A DNA stretch of 32,137 bases, from IMG/VR virus record IMGVR_UViG_3300028025_002294, positions 1 through 32,137 of that record. One strand, 5' to 3'. The position numbers and the translations under genes are program-made. The notes below the pieces were generated by a model that worked only from the letters and a program-made list of their open reading frames with translations, was not told the origin of the DNA and ran no database searches. Position 1 is the stretch's first letter. Each line of letters begins with the position of its first letter. Shown piece after piece: positions 14,684 to 32,072 of this stretch. This stretch comes from a virus.

Positions 14684-14701
14684 CTAATAGCATTATATTT
14701 G
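14672..14701 (+). promoter_or_regulatory. Bacteroidota-type promoter (TTG-N19-TATATTTG)
   Basis: TTG at 14672-14674 is followed after 19 bases by TATATTTG at 14694-14701, an exact fit to the Bacteroidota primary-sigma consensus (-33 TTG, -7 TAnnTTTG). It overlaps the end of the preceding gene and lies ~36 nt before the gene at 14738. The 13-base string AGCATTATATTTG recurs exactly at 15275-15287. Confidence 0.75.
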
Positions 14702-14716
14702 TAATGTATACAAATC

Positions 14717-14732
14717 TAAAATTATAATTTTA
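14717..14732. promoter_or_regulatory. Perfect 16-bp AT-only palindrome in the 5' leader
   Basis: TAAAATTATAATTTTA is a perfect palindrome lying between the promoter and the start codon at 14738. It could be an operator half-site pair or a weak RNA hairpin near the initiation region. AT-only palindromes arise easily by chance in DNA this AT-rich. Confidence 0.35.
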
Positions 14733-22033: not shown

Positions 22034-23477
22034 GATATTAATTTTATTCATGATAGCTCTGTCCCTCAAAGGCCAGAGCTTTATGTATTCCTATACAGAT
22101 CCCTGTACTCAGGAGTTAAAATTCATTAACGCAAATATGTCTAGTCCTATAGTAATTGCTTACTATGGACAGGTGCAAACTTTCTCTTACACAGAATTAC
22201 AAGATGGTACTTTTGATAATTGGATAAATAGTGTATATTTGAAGTATAAAAATACATCACCCTGTCAAGGAGTTGGAGTAACAACTACAACAACAACGAC
22301 TACAAATGCGACCTTAAACATTGTAAGTAATGTTATGAATTTAGGGGCCATCTCAAATGTAGGAAGTGTTAACGTAGATGTAGGATCTAGCACTTCTTCA
22401 GGAACTAACGTAGGAACAACCAATAAAACAAACAATAATGACAGTAGAACTAATTCTCGGAATCGTACTAGTAGTAGCTCTAGTAATTCTAATTCTTCTA
22501 GCAGCTCGTCAGGAGAAACTGGAAGCAGCAACAATGGAGGAAATTCATCAGAAAATCAAAGTGGGTCAACATCCAACTCCAGTAATGGAAGCAGCGGAGA
22601 AGGTAATGGAGGAAGCAGTGGCGACAATTCCAGTGGTGGAAACAGTAGTGGTTCCAGTAGTGGAAGTAGTAGCGGAAGCTCCAGTGGTAGCGGAAGTGGT
22701 TCCTCCAGTGGTAAAACCGAAGAAAAAACGGAAGTACAAACCGAGAAACCCTCAGAACAAAAAGTAGAGGAAACTAAGACTGAGCAACAAAAGACTCAGT
22801 CTAGTGGTACTGCGAAAGCAGCCAATAAAGCTAAAGCCGAAGTTGCTAAGCCTGCGATCTTAGTAACTGGTGATTTAGTTGGTATTCAGACTAAGTCTGA
22901 TGGAGCACAAGATGCAAGAGGTACTGCTTCCTTTACAAGAGTAAAAGGAGATGGTACTTCTTCTCTTGGGTTCTCAGCCGATTATATGCTTAATGCTAAG
23001 ATCGGTAATATCTCCTGTGTCCGTTCATGGATAGGAGCAAACAAAAAAGGCAACAAACACATTAGTGTTGTTTCAGATGGTCTAAGTCTAATGCCTAAGT
23101 CAATATCTAATACACTCTTGTTTGTAAGAGTAAACTCAGTTAAAAACTTTACAGCACTTTATGGGGCAGCTGGAACCTACGGTAAGTTATTTGGAGAAGA
23201 GATGATCTCTACTATTGCAATAGGTGGCTTTATGTACAAGGGAAAACTTACTAAACACATGGATGCTACAATTATTATGGCAGGTATCTATTCTCCCTAC
23301 TCTAAGTATTATACAGAGTCTATATTTGAAGCTAAGCCTATTGTAATTCCTTTCTTTAACTTTACCTACAAGATGACTAAGACATTTGGTTTAGGTATTA
23401 CAGGCGGAGGAACTTACGTAGCTGGTCAGGATATTCTTAACTTTCAAATCTTAATGGGAGCAAAGTTATTGATATGA
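22017..23477 (+). CDS. Exported Ser/Gly/Asn-rich protein with barrel-like C-terminus
   Basis: This 486-residue protein has a signal peptide at about 1-20 (MYLKTKILILFMIALSLKGQ). The start at 22017 lies in the end of the CsgG-like gene and gives the best n-region; a second Met at residue 12 would shorten it. Residues ~21-85 form a small domain with two Cys (DPCTQEL, SPCQGVG), followed by eight consecutive Thr. About 130-235 is a low-complexity Ser/Gly/Asn spacer, then a Glu/Lys-rich stretch. The last ~200 residues alternate hydrophobic and polar residues in strand-like runs (TLLFVRVNSVKNFTALYGAA, TIAIGGFMY, ATIIMAGIYS) and end in NFQILMGAKLLI, consistent with an outer-membrane barrel or surface beta domain. 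It is likely a partner of the CsgG-like protein. No known family is recognised. Confidence 0.65.
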   Translation: MYLKTKILILFMIALSLKGQSFMYSYTDPCTQELKFINANMSSPIVIAYYGQVQTFSYTELQDGTFDNWINSVYLKYKNTSPCQGVGVTTTTTTTTNATLNIVSNVMNLGAISNVGSVNVDVGSSTSSGTNVGTTNKTNNNDSRTNSRNRTSSSSSNSNSSSSSSGETGSSNNGGNSSENQSGSTSNSSNGSSGEGNGGSSGDNSSGGNSSGSSSGSSSGSSSGSGSGSSSGKTEEKTEVQTEKPSEQKVEETKTEQQKTQSSGTAKAANKAKAEVAKPAILVTGDLVGIQTKSDGAQDARGTASFTRVKGDGTSSLGFSADYMLNAKIGNISCVRSWIGANKKGNKHISVVSDGLSLMPKSISNTLLFVRVNSVKNFTALYGAAGTYGKLFGEEMISTIAIGGFMYKGKLTKHMDATIIMAGIYSPYSKYYTESIFEAKPIVIPFFNFTYKMTKTFGLGITGGGTYVAGQDILNFQILMGAKLLI

Positions 23478-24457
23478 GGTGGGTTATTGTTCTATTCTTC
23501 TTTGTGAACGCACTGAGTGCACAATTCACTTATTCTGGATACTTATATAGTGCAAGTGGAAATGCAGCTTCTAATGTGGCTATAAAGCTGTATAGAAGAA
23601 CAAACTCTACTATAACAGGATTCACTTCTCAGAACAACTATAACGGACACTCTTACTATCGTTCTACAGGAATAGCAAACTGGACTACAGCTAAATCTAA
23701 CTGTGTTGCTATGGGAGGACACTTGGTTACAGTTACTACTTCTGGTGAAAACAGTTTCTTATTTAATCTTTGGCCTTCTGGTTGGATAGGACTAACAGAT
23801 GAAGTAACAGAGGGGACTTGGAAATGGGTAACAGGAGAAACTTTTTCTTATACAAACTGGAACTCAGGAGAACCCAATAACTCAGGTAATGAAGACTATA
23901 TTCAGTTTGTAGGTAGTGGAAAGTGGAATGACTTAAACAATAGTAGTAGTCTGGCTTATGTTATAGAATTTGATTACATAGTTACAACTTCTTCTTGGGC
24001 ACTTTATAAAACTATTTATACTAACTCTTCGGGGTACTATTCTATCTCTGAGACTTATGATCCTTCTAAAGAATACTACATAGAGGTAGATGCCCCTACT
24101 AGAGTCCAAGCCTATACTACCTCAGACATTCAAGCAGTATCTAATGTAATCTTAGGAAAGACTGTTAGAAACGGATTATCCTTTCATATGTTTGATGTAA
24201 ATGAAGATGGAATACTTTCAGTAGCAGATAAGTATTACGTAGCTGCAAGGAAAGCTGGGAGATTCTCTAGGTGGAGAACAGCTCCTGACGTAAGACTCTT
24301 TACTACTACAGAATACAATGCTATCAAAGCAGCTAAAGTAAACGTACGTACAACTTATCCTGGAGTTAGTACTTTTACAACCTCTACTTTAAGTAGTGGA
24401 GGAACTTTAAATCTATACCTAATAGCTCCTGGATACTCTGGAGCAGTAACCTACTAA
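23474..24457 (+). CDS. Secreted C-type lectin domain inserted in a transthyretin-like domain, followed by a dockerin-like domain
   Basis: This 327-residue protein has a signal peptide at 1-16 (cleavage before QFTYSG). Residues 17-48 start a transthyretin/Cna-B-like sandwich (SGYLYSASGNAASNVAIKLY). A C-type lectin domain occupies ~57-168: WIGLTD (104-109), EPN (133-135, the mannose-type calcium/sugar motif) and WND (151-153). It has only one Cys (Cys77), so the usual disulphides are absent. The sandwich resumes at ~172-205 (WALYKTIYTNSSGYYSI). A dockerin-like pair follows: a degenerate first helix (TSDIQAVSNVILG) and a perfect EF-hand-type loop DVNEDGILSVAD (241-252). The tail RFSRWRTAPDVRLFTTTEYNAI matches the same module of the protein at 17213. 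It lacks the T9SS tag. It is probably exported to the periplasm or surface to bind glycans. Confidence 0.78.
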   Translation: MRWVIVLFFFVNALSAQFTYSGYLYSASGNAASNVAIKLYRRTNSTITGFTSQNNYNGHSYYRSTGIANWTTAKSNCVAMGGHLVTVTTSGENSFLFNLWPSGWIGLTDEVTEGTWKWVTGETFSYTNWNSGEPNNSGNEDYIQFVGSGKWNDLNNSSSLAYVIEFDYIVTTSSWALYKTIYTNSSGYYSISETYDPSKEYYIEVDAPTRVQAYTTSDIQAVSNVILGKTVRNGLSFHMFDVNEDGILSVADKYYVAARKAGRFSRWRTAPDVRLFTTTEYNAIKAAKVNVRTTYPGVSTFTTSTLSSGGTLNLYLIAPGYSGAVTY

Positions 24458-24969: not shown

Positions 24970-25305
24970 GTTAGGTTCCTTCTCGAATGAGAAGTTGTCT
25001 ATTTTGACTTTCTATTCTAACTTATATTACAGCAGTTTTTAACCAAATAGCTCCTCTGAGCTAAGTCTCTGTTCTGTCCACTTATTGCCTACGGTCTATT
25101 AGTTGTAGGTCAGAGCACTGTAAACTTCGTAAGAACATTTTGACACTATCGGAGAAACCTCTTTTCACCTCTGAGGGCTACTCATACTATCCAACTTCTA
25201 GCAGATTACTTTTGAATCCTCGTCTGCGAACACAAAGATGTGATGTCACTACGAAGGTAACTACATTTTGTAGTCAACTGTTTGCTCTGTTGATAATTTG
25301 TGAAA
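24970..25305. other. 336-base stretch without a convincing gene; several small hairpins
   Basis: Codon-like structure is absent on both strands; the one longer + frame (25140-25355) does not look like a protein. Short perfect stems recur: CTTCTC-GAAT-GAGAAG (24979-24994), which may weakly terminate the upstream gene; TAGCTC-CTCT-GAGCTA (25048-25063); CCTAC...GTAGG (25088-25109); and ACTAC-ATTTT-GTAGT (25260-25274). It lies between the 3' ends of a + and a - gene, so it could be 3' UTR sequence or a non-coding RNA. No tRNA could be folded. Confidence 0.4.
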
Positions 25306-25578
25306 TCAAATTCCTGCTGATCCCTGAGGATGCATATAATCAGTCTGTTGCATAGGCTGTTCATCGTCTAGAATTGCATCTAAAGCTTCTTCAATGTAAT
25401 CAAATAACATTTCTTCGGTATACTTTTTACGATAAGTAAAGAGTTTAAAGCCTTCGTATAGAGCAATCTTAAATCCTCCTATATCTCCTGCTAGTTTGAC
25501 TTTCTCATCTTCGAGTGCAAGTAGAAAAATATCAAACACCTCATCGGCATTTGGCTTTTTAATTTTATCCATAGACAT
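25306..25578 (-). CDS. Only minus-strand gene: small acidic protein, function unknown
   Basis: This 90-residue protein is read opposite to all other genes. The start ATG at 25578-25576 is preceded after 7 nt by a perfect AGGAGG (25591-25586), and a TATATTTG -7 element lies just upstream (25603-25596). Together these make it much more credible than a shadow frame. The protein is helical and acidic (DEVFDIFLLALEDEKVKLAG, YTEEMLFDYIEEALDAILDDE), with a central GFKIALYEGFKLFTYRKK segment and a disordered end. There are no Cys residues, signal peptide or membrane helix. A small gene divergent from a DNA-binding gene suggests an early, regulatory or exclusion function, but no family is recognised. 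Confidence 0.7.
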   Translation of the reverse strand: MSMDKIKKPNADEVFDIFLLALEDEKVKLAGDIGGFKIALYEGFKLFTYRKKYTEEMLFDYIEEALDAILDDEQPMQQTDYMHPQGSAGI

Positions 25579-25585
25579 AACAGGT

Positions 25586-25603
25586 CCTCCTTGTACAAAT
25601 ATA
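25586..25603 (-). promoter_or_regulatory. Minus-strand -7 element and strong Shine-Dalgarno
   Basis: On the minus strand TATATTTG (25603-25596) is followed by AGGAGG (25591-25586) and, 7 nt later, the ATG at 25578. The nearest upstream TTG is 23 bases away (25629-25627), too far for a good -33 element. This is the only consensus Shine-Dalgarno I noticed in the window. Confidence 0.6.
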
Positions 25604-25654
25604 ATCGTAAATTATTTTTTGTCTAGCAATAGTTTTTCACCTAAAATAATCATA

Positions 25655-25762
25655 CGTGTTAAGAATTGGATTAACACGGTTAATATTCTAAGTTAAAAGT
25701 ACCCTTCGAGTTAACATATAACTTGACTTTTTTTGCTAAGGTAGTATATTTGTTTACGTTAA
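25655..25762. promoter_or_regulatory. Candidate operator cluster: CGTGTTAA inverted repeat and repeated GTTAA
   Basis: CGTGTTAA (25655-25662) and TTAACACG (25671-25678) form a perfect inverted repeat with an 8-base spacer. GTTAA also occurs at 25679-25683, 25692-25696, 25710-25714 (as palindromic GTTAAC) and 25758-25762. The set spans the gap between the divergent minus-strand gene and the DNA-binding gene and surrounds the + promoter, as expected for repressor sites. Confidence 0.5.
25723..25752 (+). promoter_or_regulatory. Bacteroidota-type promoter (TTGAC, 19-base spacer, TATATTTG) for the packaging operon
   Basis: TTG at 25723-25725 and TATATTTG at 25745-25752 are separated by 19 bases, an exact consensus match. 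The start codon at 25777 lies 24 bases past the -7 element. It likely drives the genes through terminase and portal, since no other promoter-like pair was seen between them. Confidence 0.8.
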
Positions 25763-25776
25763 AACAAAACCAACCA

Positions 25777-26148
25777 ATGAAAGTAGCACGTAAATACGAA
25801 GAAGGAGTTAAGTTACATCAGGCATATATTGATGTATTACTTAGACTTGCGGGGTATAGATTATCTGATCTGTACACCAGTATATTAGCCCATAGTTCAT
25901 TTTACGGTACTTTAGACAAAGTAGTGAAAGAAAGAATCGCCAGTGAGTTTGACACATCAATCCAAGTTATCTCTAACGGGATAACTAAGTTAAGAAAGAT
26001 GGGCATCTTAGAAAAGAATGCAGTCAACCCAAGACTGTGTCCTACTAGCAAGCAAGGTGTCACCCTCACTTTGATTCTCTCAACCACTAATGTAGGATTG
26101 GCTAATACTAGTCCTTCAGCTAAACTTGAAGTAGCAGTTACTGCATGA
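25777..26148 (+). CDS. Putative winged-helix DNA-binding protein with a fibre-like C-terminal tail
   Basis: I chose the ATG at 25777 (MKVARKYEEG) because the frame upstream runs through the promoter. The 123-residue protein is helical; residues ~62-88 (ASEFDTSIQVISNGITKLRKMGILEK) read as a helix-turn-helix with recognition helix and wing, as in replication initiator or MarR-like folds. A gene like this commonly opens the packaging operon of crAss-like phages. The last ~20 residues (TTNVGLANTSPSAKLEV) strikingly resemble the GNVGIGTTSPxxKLxV repeat of the S74 tail fibre at 449. This suggests recombination with fibre DNA or convergent low complexity. It may bind the GTTAA cluster upstream and regulate its own operon. 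The stop overlaps the next start (ATGA). Confidence 0.65.
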   Translation: MKVARKYEEGVKLHQAYIDVLLRLAGYRLSDLYTSILAHSSFYGTLDKVVKERIASEFDTSIQVISNGITKLRKMGILEKNAVNPRLCPTSKQGVTLTLILSTTNVGLANTSPSAKLEVAVTA

Positions 26149-26687
26149 CCTCAATAAAGGATACATACGAAACCATCGAAATTAAAACCTATGCTGCTTA
26201 TTCAGACGTAGCAAAAGAAATGGGTCTTACTATTGATAAGGTAAGTACTGTATACGAATGGTACTTGAAGAAGACCATTGAGGACATTGTAGAATTACCT
26301 ACAGTTAAAGTTAGATTATCTGGATTAGGTGTTCTGGTTTTTAATCCTTCTAGAGCAATCAAGTTGATAGCTAAGAAACTTAAATCAGAATATCTCTTAA
26401 CACTTGAACCTAGACCAGACTTAACAGCAATTAGAGGTTACGCTAACTACTACATGCTAGGAGATTGGCTTAAGCTTTTTAAAGATAGATACGAAAGAGG
26501 CAAAACTAAAAAACTCTACAACCAACAAACTTTAGAGTACATGGATAGAACCTACGAAACACAAATATTAAACCACCAAAAATTATATGAATCCTTACAA
26601 AGAGTACATGGCCCTGAGCCTGAAGGGGCTAAAGAATTTGAACAAAGTATTGGAGGGAGTAGCAACCAAGACAGCGAATCAATTTAA
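26145..26687 (+). CDS. IHF/HU-like DNA-binding protein of crAss-like type
   Basis: This 180-residue protein has an N-terminal ~90 residues that match the HU/IHF layout: two helices (YSDVAKEMGLTIDKVSTVYE, WYLKKTIEDIVE), then a strand-turn-strand VKVRLSGLGVLVFNPSRAI that parallels the 'v.i.gfGtF.v..r.ar' core, and a following helix. The C-terminal ~90 residues form a charged helical extension not found in bacterial HU. IHF-like subunits encoded just upstream of the terminase are a known feature of crAss-like phages. It probably bends DNA for packaging or transcription. It overlaps both neighbouring genes (4 nt and 101 nt), the second being unusually long. Confidence 0.72.
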   Translation: MTSIKDTYETIEIKTYAAYSDVAKEMGLTIDKVSTVYEWYLKKTIEDIVELPTVKVRLSGLGVLVFNPSRAIKLIAKKLKSEYLLTLEPRPDLTAIRGYANYYMLGDWLKLFKDRYERGKTKKLYNQQTLEYMDRTYETQILNHQKLYESLQRVHGPEPEGAKEFEQSIGGSSNQDSESI

Positions 26688-26964
26688 ACTATTGAGCAAT
26701 GAAAAACAGAACATTATCGCAGACAGAATGGACATTTGTATTAATTGTCCCTACAATTCAAGAAACGCAGTCACTTCTCCCGAATATGTACAACTCACAG
26801 GCAAGCACTACAGCACTAACAGAGACGAACTTCACTGTTCGTTTTGTGGCTGCATCTGTACCTACAAAACGTCATCTCTATCTTCAAATTGCGGAATAGA
26901 GACTTGGAACGCAGAACACCCTTTACATAAAATAGAATTAAAATGGAAAAGCACAGAACAGTAA
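26587..26964 (+). CDS. Small Cys-rich protein of the terminase-proximal cluster
   Basis: This 125-residue protein has an N-terminal ~45 helical residues (MNPYKEYMALSLKGLKNLNK) and a C-terminal metal-binding-like domain with CINCPYNS, CSFCGCIC and NCGIETWN. The CxxC...CxxCGC pattern predicts zinc binding. I kept the start at 26587 although it overlaps the IHF-like gene by 101 nt, because the N-terminal helix is in frame and continuous with the domain. A later start would lose it. Related small proteins appear in this position in Bacteroidota phages. The function is unknown. The pattern resembles the small protein at 10732. Confidence 0.65.
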   Translation: MNPYKEYMALSLKGLKNLNKVLEGVATKTANQFKLLSNEKQNIIADRMDICINCPYNSRNAVTSPEYVQLTGKHYSTNRDELHCSFCGCICTYKTSSLSSNCGIETWNAEHPLHKIELKWKSTEQ

Positions 26965-27071
26965 CCATTAAGAATGGTTGCGACAAAAGACCTGGTAGCA
27001 AGTGTGGAGTTCAGATCTACTTCTTGCCTGCCGACAAACCTTTAACAAAGGTTTCTTCTAAAGCAAAGTAA
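26943..27071 (+). CDS. Tiny basic protein, function unknown
   Basis: This 42-residue frame (MEKHRTVTIKNGC...VSSKAK) overlaps the end of the preceding gene by 22 nt and ends 1 nt before the next ATG, filling an otherwise unexplained gap in a gap-free operon. It is basic, with two Cys (NGCDKRPGSKCGVQIYF) that could bind metal or pair. Strand-like segments flank a Gly/Pro turn. Tight packing supports it as real; no family can be named. Confidence 0.55.
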   Translation: MEKHRTVTIKNGCDKRPGSKCGVQIYFLPADKPLTKVSSKAK

Positions 27072-27072
27072 G

Positions 27073-27279
27073 ATGATAGACAACCAACCAACCCCCAGCC
27101 AGCCATATGTAAACTTTACTTTACAGGATAACTTATTCGAGACGTTTAAGATATTTTGGAAAGCAGGGTTTTCGTATAGTAAAACAGGCAGAGATGAAGA
27201 CTTCTATGCACGTGTGCTAGAAGACATTATGAATATGCCTCAAGAACAATTCTTAAAGAAATACTCAGATGGCCGTTAA
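27073..27279 (+). CDS. Small protein of the terminase cluster, function unknown
   Basis: This 68-residue protein has a Pro-rich opening (MIDNQPTPSQPYVNFTLQDN), a helical middle (NLFETFKIFWKAGFSY) and an acidic helix (DEDFYARVLEDIMNMPQEQF). There is no signal peptide or catalytic motif. It overlaps the next gene by 11 nt and sits two genes before terminase. A packaging-accessory role is a positional guess. Confidence 0.6.
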   Translation: MIDNQPTPSQPYVNFTLQDNLFETFKIFWKAGFSYSKTGRDEDFYARVLEDIMNMPQEQFLKKYSDGR

Positions 27280-27586
27280 GAAATTATCATACATATCAGC
27301 AGAACTGGAGTGGGCAGAACAACGCTTAACTGAATGGAGAGCTTACATAGATAACAACCCTATCAATTCTTTGAAGGATAGGATTGAATGGAAGCCTACA
27401 GCTAAGGGCGGAACTATGCCTATGGTTATTGCTAGTCAAGAGTCTCAGATTAAATCTCTTAGAGATACTATGAAAGAGTACTTGGCTTTACTAGAAGTAG
27501 TAGATAGGTTGAGAGAGAAAGAGGAACAGAAAGCAGAAGCTAGAGGTTCTCAAGAGATTAACGGTAAGATGAAACAATTCAATTAA
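27269..27586 (+). CDS. Small coiled-coil protein before terminase (possible small terminase subunit)
   Basis: This 105-residue protein is almost wholly helical, with two long charged helices: AELEWAEQRLTEWRAYID, and SQIKSLRDTMKEYLALLEVV running into RLREKEEQKAEARG. They are joined by a Pro/Gly-containing linker (WKPTAKGGTMPMVIAS). It ends 1 nt before the large terminase start. Position and coiled-coil character fit a small terminase subunit or packaging regulator. Small terminases are too divergent to assign by eye, and no helix-turn-helix is visible. Confidence 0.6.
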   Translation: MAVKKLSYISAELEWAEQRLTEWRAYIDNNPINSLKDRIEWKPTAKGGTMPMVIASQESQIKSLRDTMKEYLALLEVVDRLREKEEQKAEARGSQEINGKMKQFN

Positions 27587-27587
27587 T

Positions 27588-29597
27588 ATGCATCCTAATC
27601 TAGATAGTCCTGAATTCTTAATTAATGTAAAGTCTCTCCCTGACATTGGATCAGAGGAGTATGATGAATTTTGGGAGAATGAGGATAAAAAGATTACAGA
27701 CGGTGTAACTATTAATGGATTCTACTTTTCTCCGTTTATCTACTGGCATTTAAATTACTGGTCTATTTACGTAGATACAATGGTAGGTAAACGTCAAGTT
27801 CGTAAACTAGACAAACCTCAGCTTTGGGATACTTATTTAGCAGTAGATGAGACCATTCACAAAGCAGAGAATCACGAGGATGGAAAGAAGGGAGTTGTTA
27901 TGGTAGGATCCAGACGTATCTCTAAGTCAGTTTTAACTTCTTCTTACATGGCTCACAAAGCCATTACACAGAAAGGTTCTGACAACTTGATATCTGCGCT
28001 TAACCAACCTGACTTAAAAGTAATTACAGACTACGTAGACTTAGGTATTAGAAATCTTCCTGACTACTTTAGGTTCCCTCGTATTGAGGATGACTGGAAG
28101 AGACAGGTAACTTTAGGATTTAAAGACAAGAGAACTAATGCTCGTAATGAGTGGTCTAAGTTCCACGTACGAAACTTTGATGAAGGTAACAATACGGAAG
28201 CAGCGGCAGGTCTTACTCTATCTTCTTTTCTATTAGAAGAAGGAGGAAAAGGAAAGATCCTTAGTTGTCTAGCGGCAACTACTCCTTGTTTTGACAGTCC
28301 TTATGGATGGCGTTGTTCTCCTTTTGTCATCGGTACATCTGGAGATATGACTAAAGCAGCAGATCTAGAAGAACTCTTCAACAATCCTGAAGCTTATAAC
28401 TTCCTTCCTGTAGAATCTAATGACACAGGAAAGTCTTATGGACTGTTTATCCCAGGTACTCGTTCTTTGAAAGTTCCAAAAGAAGAAACTCCCCTAGGAC
28501 TTTACTTAGGTAAAGAGGATCCTTCTGAACTAGACTTGATTAAGATCTGGGTAGCAGACGAAGAGAAAGGAAAAGAACTTATCTTAAAATCAAGAGAACA
28601 GACTAAGAAATCAAACGGATTAGAAGCTTACTTAAAAGAAGTAATGTACTATCCTTTGAATCACGAAGAGTGTTTCTTAGAATTATCTCAGAACATATTC
28701 CCTGTAGACTTACTTCAAGAACAACTACAGAAACTTAGTGCTCAAGAGATTCAAGCAGACAACGTAGAACTCTACACCAACTCTGAGGGAAAGATAAGAC
28801 ACAAGTTTACAGACAAGAAGCCTGTTTCTAACTTCCCTGTTAAACCTTCAGATCCTATTGAGGGTTGTGTTCAGATTTGGGAATACCCTCTGTCAGAAGC
28901 CCCCTATGGACTTTATACAGCAGGAACGGATCCTTATAAACAGTCTCAGGCACACTACTCAACTTCTTTGGGTTCTACTTACATCTATAAGAGAGTTCAT
29001 AATTTAAGTGGAGAAGGCTGGCAGAACATAGTTGTAGCTTGTTACACAGGTCGCCCTAAGAAAATTGAGACTTGGTATGAAACAACTAAGATGCTTCTAA
29101 AGTATTATAATGCTAAGACTCTTTGCGAGAACATGGACTATGGTTTTATCCAGCACTGTGTAGATAAGAATGAGTCTCCTAAAGTCCTAGAGAAGACACC
29201 TAAGTTTCTTAATGACATCCACCCTAACTCTACAGTAAACCGTGACTATGGTATTCACATGACTAAAGACATTAAAAACTATTTGATGTCCCTTATCATT
29301 GAATACATTACAGAAGTCGTAGATGTAGAAAGAGACGAAGAAGGAACTATCGTAAAAGAAAGACTAGGTGTAACTAGAATACTAGATCCTCTTTTAATTA
29401 AAGAGTTAATCAAGTTCACACCTAAGTTAAACGTTGACCGAGTTATTTCATTTGGTTTAACTTTAGCTATGGCTAAAACTCTTACTACACAAGTTATCAT
29501 TTCTAACTCAAATGATGATAATAGGATTCAGGCTTACTTCAGAGAAAGAAAAGGTAACTCTTTATTCCGTACAACCTCTTCACCCTTCCGTTACTAA
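27588..29597 (+). CDS. terL: Terminase large subunit (ATPase/nuclease)
   Basis: This 669-residue protein is the DNA-packaging motor. A Walker A-like P-loop lies at about 107-114 (VMVGSRRISKS, a variant lacking the classical GxxxxGKT), preceded by an N-terminal block with YFSPFIYWHLNYW typical of crAss-like terminases. A Walker B-type strand is near 212-219 (SSFLLEEGG), with adjacent acidic residues. The C-terminal nuclease domain shows the RNase H-like acidic strands: YTAGTDPYK (Asp ~447), then LCENMDYGF (~513), and a later DYGIHMT region. Length matches crAss-like TerL. It is coupled to the preceding small genes by 1-nt spacing, and the portal gene follows 21 nt later, the usual order in this group. 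Confidence 0.9.
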   Translation: MHPNLDSPEFLINVKSLPDIGSEEYDEFWENEDKKITDGVTINGFYFSPFIYWHLNYWSIYVDTMVGKRQVRKLDKPQLWDTYLAVDETIHKAENHEDGKKGVVMVGSRRISKSVLTSSYMAHKAITQKGSDNLISALNQPDLKVITDYVDLGIRNLPDYFRFPRIEDDWKRQVTLGFKDKRTNARNEWSKFHVRNFDEGNNTEAAAGLTLSSFLLEEGGKGKILSCLAATTPCFDSPYGWRCSPFVIGTSGDMTKAADLEELFNNPEAYNFLPVESNDTGKSYGLFIPGTRSLKVPKEETPLGLYLGKEDPSELDLIKIWVADEEKGKELILKSREQTKKSNGLEAYLKEVMYYPLNHEECFLELSQNIFPVDLLQEQLQKLSAQEIQADNVELYTNSEGKIRHKFTDKKPVSNFPVKPSDPIEGCVQIWEYPLSEAPYGLYTAGTDPYKQSQAHYSTSLGSTYIYKRVHNLSGEGWQNIVVACYTGRPKKIETWYETTKMLLKYYNAKTLCENMDYGFIQHCVDKNESPKVLEKTPKFLNDIHPNSTVNRDYGIHMTKDIKNYLMSLIIEYITEVVDVERDEEGTIVKERLGVTRILDPLLIKELIKFTPKLNVDRVISFGLTLAMAKTLTTQVIISNSNDDNRIQAYFRERKGNSLFRTTSSPFRY

Positions 29598-29618
29598 AAC
29601 TAAAACAAATATACTAAA

Positions 29619-32072
29619 ATGATTATTGAAGCATTTAAAGAGCATGTAGATCCCGTCAATCATGCCTACTTCTACCCTGAGCAATTTGTAAGCTTAGAGT
29701 ATAAGCAGTCTGAGAAATGGATAAAGTCTACTATGGACTATTTTGCAAATATTGCATTTGCACAATACAAACAGAACGTAGCTTTTAGAAAAAACTACCG
29801 CTTACTTAACGGAGAATTTAACTTTGCTGACTATACAAACGTTGCAGACTATCAGGAGCTAATCAGCTACTTGGAAGATGTTCCTAATCAGGATCCAGAT
29901 GTTCCTCAGCACTTAAAGCACTACCCAATAGTTAACCCTCCTATCAATCAGTTAAAGGGAGAGTTGATCAATCGTCCTCACAAGTACAAAGTAAAAGCTA
30001 TAGATGACGAAGCAATCAATGAAACTATTGACTTCAGAACTGAGTTAATCAAGGAACACTTCTTAAAGAATCTTGAAGCTCAGTTAGAAGGACAGGAGAT
30101 TGATCCTGAACAAAGAGCACAGATGGAGCAAGACATCCAGAATAAAATCTTGGATTATACTTCAGTTGCAGAAGAGTGGGGTAACAAAACTCTTAATGCT
30201 CTTAAATATCATTTTAACTTTAGAGATAAATCTCAACAGTCATTTCTAGACTTCTTGGTAACAGGTAAAGAGTTTCACCACTTCTACCCTGATAACTCTC
30301 GTTTAGGCTTTAACTATAAAGTAGAGAACCCCTCTAACGTATGGTACTTAGGTAATCGTAATGCTCAGTATACTACAGACTGTTGGGCACTAGGACTTAT
30401 TGAAGTTCTTTCAATGACTGAGATTGTAGATCGTTATAACTTAACAGGAGAAGAAATCGAACACTTGAAAGTTCGTTCTCTTCAAAACTTAAGAAACAAC
30501 GAATACTCTCCAATGGCTCCTGCTCTTCCAGATCCTAACGATCCTTTGTGGCAGTTGACATTTGAAAACGTAGGTGACTTTGCTAACGGTGGTATTGATC
30601 ACAACGTATTCTCTTTTAACTCTCAGCATGCTTATACGGTAATTACCGCTTACTGGCAGTCTAAGAAGAAGATCTTCAAACGTACTTACTTAGATGAAGA
30701 AGGATACCAACAAGAGATGTTTGTATCTGAAGACTACAAAATAGATAAAACTCTTGGAGATATCTCTATCGAAGAACTTTGGATTAACGAATGGTGGAGA
30801 GGAATCAAGATTGGAGCTAACATCTATGTAAACGTAGAACCTTTAGAATTTATTCAAGATTGTCCTCTAGTAGGAATCATTAATACTTCTCGTAACACTC
30901 AAGGTAAATCTCTTCTAGATCTTCTTAAGCCTTACCAAGTTCTTTACAACATCTGTATGAACCAGCTATGGGAACTTCTTGAAAAAGAAATTGGAGTAGT
31001 GTTCTTGGGTGACTTAAAAGTAGTTCCTAAGAAAGACTCTCAAGATCCTATTGAGACAATGCTTTGGAAAGCTAAGAACAGAGGTACTCTTTTGATTGAT
31101 ACTTCAATCGAGAATACAGGAGGAGCTGTACAGTTCAACCAATTCTCTCGTATTGACCTTACTCGTTCTCAGGAAATCCAAGCACGTATTCAATTAGCTC
31201 AGCAACTTCGTCTAGAAGCTTATGAGTTGGTAGGTATTACTCGTCAACGTCTAGGTAACTCTCAAGCTTCAGATACAGCCACAGCAGCTAACAATGCTTT
31301 GATTCAATCTTTTGCTCAAACAGAAACTTGGTTTGCTTGGCATGACAATGTATTGCAGAGAGTATATCAGACTATTCTAGATATGTCTCAGTACATTGAA
31401 TTGCAGAAACCTACTTCTACGCTTAACTATCTTAACTCTGAACTAGAGAACGTATTCTTAAGAGTAAGCAAGAACGAACTTCTTCATGAGTTGTTTGTAT
31501 TTGTTTCTTCTTATGCAGAAGATAAAGTTACTTTGGAACAGTTGAAACAGTTGGCTCAACCTGCTATGCAGAATGGAGCAGAGCTTTCTGAGATGGTAGA
31601 CTTGTTTACTGCTAACTCTGAAAGAAGTCTTCGTAAGACTTTAGGAGAAGTACAGAAACGTAAAGAAGCTATTCGTCAACAAGAACAGGCTCTTAAACAA
31701 CAAGAGTTGCAACAACAACAAGAACAGTTCCAACAGAAGATGCAGATGGATGCTGCTGAAAAAGAGAAAGAAGCTCAACGTGATGACATGAATAAGCAAC
31801 TTGATCGTGAGAACAAACTTCAGATTGTACAACTTCAAGGTATTGCCAATGAAGGTTCTTATAATCCTGACGTAGATACTACTGGACTTTTAATTGAACA
31901 GACTAAAATAGCTCAAGATATTTCTAAGCAAACTTTTGAGAAAGTAACTAAGAATAAAGAGCTCAGTTTGAAAGAGAAAGAGCTAGCACTCAAGGAGAAA
32001 GACATCGACACCAAGTTAAAAATAGCTCAAACAAATAAAAACAAATACGATTCTGGCTCAAAAAAGAAATAA
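29619..32072 (+). CDS. Portal protein
   Basis: This 817-residue protein directly follows the terminase, as portals do. The N-terminal part contains RKNYRLLNGEFNFADYTNV and an NPPINQLKGELINRPHKYKV segment typical of crAss-like portals. The middle has long helices and a strand region (YQVLYNICMNQLWELLEKE) that matches the stem/wing core. LGNSQASDTATAANNALIQS precedes the barrel helices. The C-terminal ~130 residues are a Gln/Glu/Lys-rich coiled coil ending in a Lys-rich tail (~690-817). At ~817 residues it is larger than many portals but in the range for crAss-like phages. It should form the dodecameric ring at the capsid vertex. Confidence 0.87.
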   Translation: MIIEAFKEHVDPVNHAYFYPEQFVSLEYKQSEKWIKSTMDYFANIAFAQYKQNVAFRKNYRLLNGEFNFADYTNVADYQELISYLEDVPNQDPDVPQHLKHYPIVNPPINQLKGELINRPHKYKVKAIDDEAINETIDFRTELIKEHFLKNLEAQLEGQEIDPEQRAQMEQDIQNKILDYTSVAEEWGNKTLNALKYHFNFRDKSQQSFLDFLVTGKEFHHFYPDNSRLGFNYKVENPSNVWYLGNRNAQYTTDCWALGLIEVLSMTEIVDRYNLTGEEIEHLKVRSLQNLRNNEYSPMAPALPDPNDPLWQLTFENVGDFANGGIDHNVFSFNSQHAYTVITAYWQSKKKIFKRTYLDEEGYQQEMFVSEDYKIDKTLGDISIEELWINEWWRGIKIGANIYVNVEPLEFIQDCPLVGIINTSRNTQGKSLLDLLKPYQVLYNICMNQLWELLEKEIGVVFLGDLKVVPKKDSQDPIETMLWKAKNRGTLLIDTSIENTGGAVQFNQFSRIDLTRSQEIQARIQLAQQLRLEAYELVGITRQRLGNSQASDTATAANNALIQSFAQTETWFAWHDNVLQRVYQTILDMSQYIELQKPTSTLNYLNSELENVFLRVSKNELLHELFVFVSSYAEDKVTLEQLKQLAQPAMQNGAELSEMVDLFTANSERSLRKTLGEVQKRKEAIRQQEQALKQQELQQQQEQFQQKMQMDAAEKEKEAQRDDMNKQLDRENKLQIVQLQGIANEGSYNPDVDTTGLLIEQTKIAQDISKQTFEKVTKNKELSLKEKELALKEKDIDTKLKIAQTNKNKYDSGSKKK

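Follow-up and report, generated by a model that had tools for sequence, protein, structure and literature searches.

In phage phi29, the structured pRNA forms a ring on the portal and is needed for packaging. Phages also encode orphan structured RNAs such as GOLLD and ROOL, often near tRNA islands, in which one half is conserved and the other variable. Divergent promoters that depend on a regulator, known from phages and from bacteria, carry regulator-like sites between, and upstream of, both promoters. In the crAss-like phage crAss001, the structural genes and the terminase are expressed late, and late transcription has been ascribed to the host polymerase (PMC8375218, PMC10136315). The Bacteroidota −7 consensus is TANNTTTG, with transcription usually starting 4–5 nt further on (PMC6847099); in the primary (sigma-ABfr) promoters it is combined with a −33 TTTG element.

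The window analyzed here is the whole 32,137-base IMG/VR virus record IMGVR_UViG_3300028025_002294, the source of which is environmental DNA only. Its packaging operon (26145–32072, plus strand), delineated by PHROG matches, consists of small genes followed by those of the large terminase subunit (TerL, 27588–29597; phrog_6681, E 5e-98) and the portal (29619–32072; phrog_6547, E 2e-101). Because of these matches, and because the nearest described phages by TerL are Leptolyngbya phage Lbo-JY46 (39.7% identity), Cellulophaga phage phi4:1 (30%) and then gut crAss-like phages, the window is, on protein similarity, a fragment of a crAss-like phage. The comparative set comprises 52 loci with a relative of TerL and 37 with a relative of the first packaging gene, most of them on metagenomic contigs. 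No tRNA or tmRNA was detected in the window. Lbo-JY46 and phi4:1 have tRNA arrays in place of the structured RNA described below, and neither gave a match to this RNA. In phi4:1, a 91-aa gene on the minus strand (gp074, L133:2524-2799) diverges from the packaging operon in the same layout as the 90-aa gene of the window, without detectable similarity between the two products.

GTTAA sites and the conserved half-site array

The gap at 25579–25776 separates the 90-aa minus-strand gene from the first packaging gene, and an earlier note made from the sequence had pointed to GTTAA recurring there on both strands within about 105 bp. All the sites are indeed present, at 25658(+), 25671(−), 25679(+), 25692(+), 25710(+)/25711(−) and 25758(+). 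The resulting 7 occurrences in 105 bp (25658–25762) make this the densest 105-bp stretch of the window, the next independent cluster having 5, and compare with 1.23 expected from dinucleotide shuffles of the same stretch (P=0.001; P=0.005 over the whole 198-bp gap). The note would have given up its reading if GTTAA were equally frequent in other intergenic DNA; the gap contains 7 in 198 bp, the other intergenic DNA of the window 4 in 713 bp. In the near relative G1, the corresponding gap has 9 in 196 bp, compared with 33 in 6,375 bp for the rest of its intergenic DNA. Two observations are in line with a chance cluster in AT-rich sequence next to a promoter: GTTAA is not enriched over the window as a whole (133 observed, 119 expected), and other 5-mers attain 6–8 copies in some 105-bp windows. 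As AT-rich DNA has clusters of other 5-mers too, the count by itself is moderate evidence.

It is conservation that renders the cluster convincing. Alignment of 18 control regions, those of the window and of 17 relatives retaining the minus-strand gene, reveals an array of five invariant half-sites at 25647–25695 (TAA 25647, TTA 25659, TAA 25672, TAA 25681 and TTA 25693), whose start-to-start spacing of 12, 13, 9 and 12 is fixed in all of them; a comparison of GTTAA spacing in relatives had been proposed in the note. Column shuffling yields 0.76 such cores on average instead of 5 (P=0.0002), a value to be taken as a guide only because the aligned relatives share descent; AAT and ATA overlapping TAA 25647 are likewise invariant (within 25640–25711). 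Four of the cores belong to the GTTAA sites of the note and one had not been counted. The perfect 8-bp inverted repeat that it described, CGTGTTAA-N8-TTAACACG (25655–25662/25671–25678, loop of 8), is present, but only its TTA...TAA part is kept in relatives and the outer CGTG/CACG is not. The GTTAAC palindrome is also found, at 25710–25715, and the TTAAC adjoining the −33 element is retained in the clade; the 25758 site is not conserved. Distant lineages carry TTATAAC...AACTTG near the packaging promoter, and TTAAC-N7-GTTAA together with GTTATAAC is found 5′ of the packaging −33 element in L080, L081, L086, L088, L091 and partly L029, which represent lineages devoid of both the minus-strand gene and the RNA; most RNA-less lineages show the motif as TTAAC-N7-GTTAA; in some distant lineages the count drops to 1–2 GTTAA. 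The invariant cores at fixed spacing largely refute the chance cluster, which is rendered extremely improbable also by the recurrence of the motif in distant lineages. As the half-sites persist where the minus-strand gene is missing, their primary role is most likely at the packaging promoter. Judged from this alignment, the stretch between the packaging genes and one backward gene is a genuine bidirectional control region that evolution has conserved.

Divergent promoters and their putative regulator

The note had placed a consensus promoter among the GTTAA sites. A promoter is present, but of the Bacteroidota type, and a second one of the same type faces the minus strand. On the packaging side (25723–25752, plus strand), TTG at 25723, within TTGAC, is separated by a 19-nt spacer from the −7 box TATATTTG at 25745–25752, and the core TTAACAT..AACTTGACTTTTTTT...GTATATTTG is near-invariant in the 18 control regions. 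The divergent promoter (25596–25625, minus strand) comprises TAGACA at 25625–25620 and the same −7 box at 25603–25596; read on the plus strand, its core contains ACAAATATA, invariant, and TTTTGTCTA, near-invariant. The −7 boxes of both strands fit the Bacteroidota consensus and are conserved in relatives, and a sigma-70 reading was dropped in favor of TAnnTTTG on both strands. With the sigma-ABfr promoters the locus thus shares the −7 box on either strand and, on the packaging side, the TTG located 19 nt upstream; it differs from them in that TTGAC follows TTAAC/TAAC half-sites (25710–25722, including the palindrome, directly 5′ of TTGAC and also seen in relatives), which are absent from that consensus. 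The conserved half-sites (25647–25722) are flanked on either side by a −33 region, a position upstream of each promoter core and overlapping neither. Similar promoters exist elsewhere in the window and in the relatives G1 and G2, whereas an equally dense half-site array is found only in this gap.

More promoters of the Bacteroidota type are located between genes of the tail region (window 15701, 14694 and 24490) and form a candidate late promoter set. One small intergenic gap, at 14694–14718, contains overlapping TAnnTTTG matches on both strands, as does relative G2 (28267/28291). At 23474–24457 lies the gene of a 327-aa protein with a PF00059 domain (C-type lectin, E 7e-16), and diversity-generating retroelements make use of this fold; a retroelement template near this gene was rejected, there being no template/variable repeat nearby.

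The gene at 25777–26148 (plus strand) heads the packaging operon and encodes 123 residues. Homologues occupy this position in 48 of 48 informative TerL loci, and likewise in Lbo-JY46. The note had called its product a putative winged-helix protein, and by structure prediction it probably is one: the AlphaFold model has a pLDDT of 79 and its top PDB matches are winged-helix regulators of the PerR/MarR type. These matches are weak (E>=0.17), for which reason the winged helix is likely rather than proven, and the match to HTH_Crp_2 (E 0.032) falls short of the cut-off. The 90-aa product of the minus-strand gene (25306–25578) belongs to no known family; it is predicted to form three helices (pLDDT 78), gives no helix-turn-helix (HTH) match, and has no PDB match below E 2.2.

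The divergent genes, the repeated inverted sites and the winged-helix candidate on one side had led the note to see the layout of a genetic switch. In the lambda-type bistable form, two divergently encoded repressors would compete for shared operators and thereby choose between two states. What stands from that proposal is the divergent region with conserved operator-like repeats between two promoters, whereas bistability finds no support and is very unlikely: the conserved sites are clear of both promoter cores, the minus-strand gene encodes a predicted three-helix protein lacking an HTH match, the half-site motif persists in lineages without that gene, and no integrase of the tyrosine type (PF00589) was found in eight relative records of about 100–119 kb each. 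The Bacteroidota-type promoters, the position of the sites upstream of both cores and the lack of a tyrosine integrase and of a recognizable second repressor suggest instead that the GTTAA sites are a regulator-binding array shared by a late divergent promoter.

In the mechanism that we propose, host RNA polymerase would read both promoters late in infection, and the array would be bound, at intervals of roughly one helical turn, by a DNA-binding protein of the phage; the likeliest candidate is the 25777 product, a predicted winged-helix protein, which would act on its own promoter. From its position upstream of both promoters, this regulator would determine when and how strongly the packaging operon and, where present, the minus-strand unit are expressed. 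Compared with known regulator-dependent divergent promoters, the minus arm here encodes a structured RNA and the regulator is putative. Taken as a whole, this model of a late two-way promoter region with a shared regulator array and a minus-strand unit including a trans-acting RNA is the one toward which we lean, with some reserve.

A somewhat unlikely alternative is that the half-sites are bound by a borrowed host transcription factor or by a nucleoid or IHF-like protein, the 25777 product acting in packaging, for instance like a small terminase. Consistent with this are the retention of the first packaging gene across lineages whose site arrangements differ greatly, the small terminase (PF05119) encoded by the first gene of the RNA-side operon in the unrelated phage L146, and the weak DNA-binding match of the 27269 product (phrog_19906, E 0.018). 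The spacing, on the other hand, is fixed in the clade more strictly than binding by a loose architectural protein would call for, and no Pfam or PHROG match to a terminase small subunit was obtained for the 25777 product, which, its PDB matches being weak, could nonetheless be a packaging protein.

Structured RNA on the minus strand

Downstream of the 90-aa gene, the gap that separates it from the upstream tail gene is conserved beyond expectation; the tail operon is closed by a terminator-like hairpin at 24979–24994 (plus strand). The note overlooked a conserved structured RNA on this arm. Comparative folding delineates an element of about 234 nt (25018–25251, minus strand), with a 5′ domain at 25247–25142, containing the helices P1 (GACAU/GUGUC), P2, P3 and P4 (UUGGA/UCCGA), and a 3′ domain at about 25141–25018. 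This two-domain fold is common to 22 distinct aligned sequences. RNAalifold predicts 44 pairs, 28 of which show compensatory changes on both sides, with swaps such as GACAC/GUGUC to GGCAC/GUGCC or GCAGA/UCUGC to ACCUG/CAGGU. With the structure held fixed, 97.4% of cells are paired, as opposed to at most 44% when it is slid by 1–3 columns. The covariation score is 0.438 (0.209 in shuffled alignments) and the structure measures exceed 500 of 500 shuffles with one exception, the number of further pair types (95/500); the consensus fold reaches −90 kcal/mol, against −41 ± 4.6 in an independent column-shuffle control. Folding of single sequences was uninformative (z −0.5 and −1.5), and comparison alone revealed the RNA. 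Thus, minus 25251–25018 is, on comparative grounds, a strongly supported structured noncoding RNA.

The ratio of G-U to A-C combinations is 92:5 in the modelled minus sense and therefore favors the minus strand, with the reservation that the structure was itself derived on that strand. A plus-strand RNA representing the 3′ UTR of the tail operon was rejected on this ratio and on a weaker consensus fold (−81 vs. −90). As most indels would shift a reading frame (lengths not multiples of 3), a protein-coding region was rejected as well. A candidate −7 box, TACCTTCG, precedes the RNA of the window at 25252–25259 (minus strand) with one mismatch to the TAnnTTTG pattern, and 11 of the 17 listed RNA copies have a perfect TAnnTTTG about 4–7 nt before the P1 stem, a distance that agrees with the usual 4–5 nt from the −7 box to the transcription start.

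No Rfam match was obtained for the RNA of the window or for its distant copies, even at permissive thresholds, by which known families including RNase P, GOLLD and pRNA were rejected. A Y RNA with a Ro partner was discarded too, no TROVE protein (PF05731) being found in 11 relatives. The RNA is previously uncatalogued in the sense of being absent from Rfam; survey supplementary tables (e.g., PMC8040213) lie outside this comparison, and an earlier unnamed listing is possible.

Distribution and possible role of the RNA

A covariance model detects one RNA copy in each of 33 fetched TerL loci and in the window, always opposite to TerL, and never a second credible copy within one record. Among the 48 informative loci, 29 have the RNA and the 90-aa gene, four the RNA only, and 15 neither (in one of them, L077, the locus is cut by the contig end). 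The 90-aa gene was thus never found without the RNA, and profile searches of ten whole RNA-only or RNA-less records did not recover it elsewhere in them. Pattern scans combined with the model identified the 5′ domain in 11 further viral contigs (L142, L146, L159, L161, L183, L243, L244 and L246–L249), with E-values, rough for this model, of 1e-16 to 1e-5. A simple helix search recovered P1–P4 with different sequences in all aligned further contigs except L246, and the 3′ parts of these copies differ. The RNA lies upstream in contigs with a crAss-type TerL (phrog_6681) and portal (L159, the group L142/L243/L244/L247/L248, and L249). In L146, with an HK97-type TerL (phrog_9), it lies just upstream of the small terminase gene and diverges from it; in L161/L183, with a phrog_2 TerL, it is encoded on the same strand, about 2.3 kb upstream. 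In L246 it is near an M23 peptidase (lysis) gene, and no terminase was found on that contig. Wherever a terminase was found, the RNA is therefore upstream of it, including in two contig types with non-orthologous terminases. In L159 (5208–5354, minus strand), about 19 tRNA genes in an array surround the RNA, and the first packaging gene has a homologue next to it.

Further pattern scans of viral contigs gave no new members, and blastn gave no copies in cultured phages. No credible match was obtained in 12 described phages that are crAss-like or related, crAss001 and phi14:2 among them, and the four weak model matches in this set all lack the CCGATAGTG core. Copies in host genomes were rejected likewise: bacterial and archaeal genomes gave 50 exact matches to 16-mers, a number not above chance, and none is convincing by the model. 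Its absence from roughly 14 loci of close relatives and from these 12 phages means that crAss-like packaging in general does not depend on the RNA.

Alternatively, the RNA could be part of the 90-aa mRNA, a 3′ UTR or stability element acting in cis, and not a separate RNA: it follows the 90-aa gene directly on the same strand, and that gene was never seen without it. We regard this reading as unlikely, given the four relatives with the RNA but without the gene, the −7 box right before the RNA in most copies, and the occurrence of the RNA in unrelated contexts. The reading that we prefer is that the RNA would act in trans, late in infection, and most plausibly as an accessory to the adjoining packaging or assembly machinery. 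Such a role is the most attractive guess because the RNA recurs next to packaging genes whose terminases differ, and it is a lead only because the contexts that can be considered independent number about three, most of the RNA contigs sharing one terminase ancestry.

Like the pRNA of phi29, the element is a phage-encoded structured RNA of 100–250 nt beside packaging genes, here in crAss-type, phrog_9 and phrog_2 terminase contexts. It differs from pRNA in having no sequence or Rfam match and another architecture, and in occurring with terminase-type motors. It recalls GOLLD and ROOL by its one conserved and one variable half and by the tRNA array of L159; in the clade of the window, however, it is much shorter, its conserved half is the 5′ one, and Rfam matches are lacking.

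The control of late genes in crAss-like phages is poorly known, and the conserved operator array and promoter pair now provide concrete candidates for testing. The RNA, absent from Rfam, is common to crAss-like phages and to contigs with other terminases, upstream of the packaging module. That it founds a new family of packaging-associated RNAs working with terminase/portal motors and co-expressed with the packaging operon through this region is a fairly unlikely proposition, yet one that, if true, would make it a functional counterpart of phi29 pRNA outside the phi29-like phages. Should the RNA act in packaging or assembly, RNA parts of packaging machinery would not be a peculiarity of phi29.
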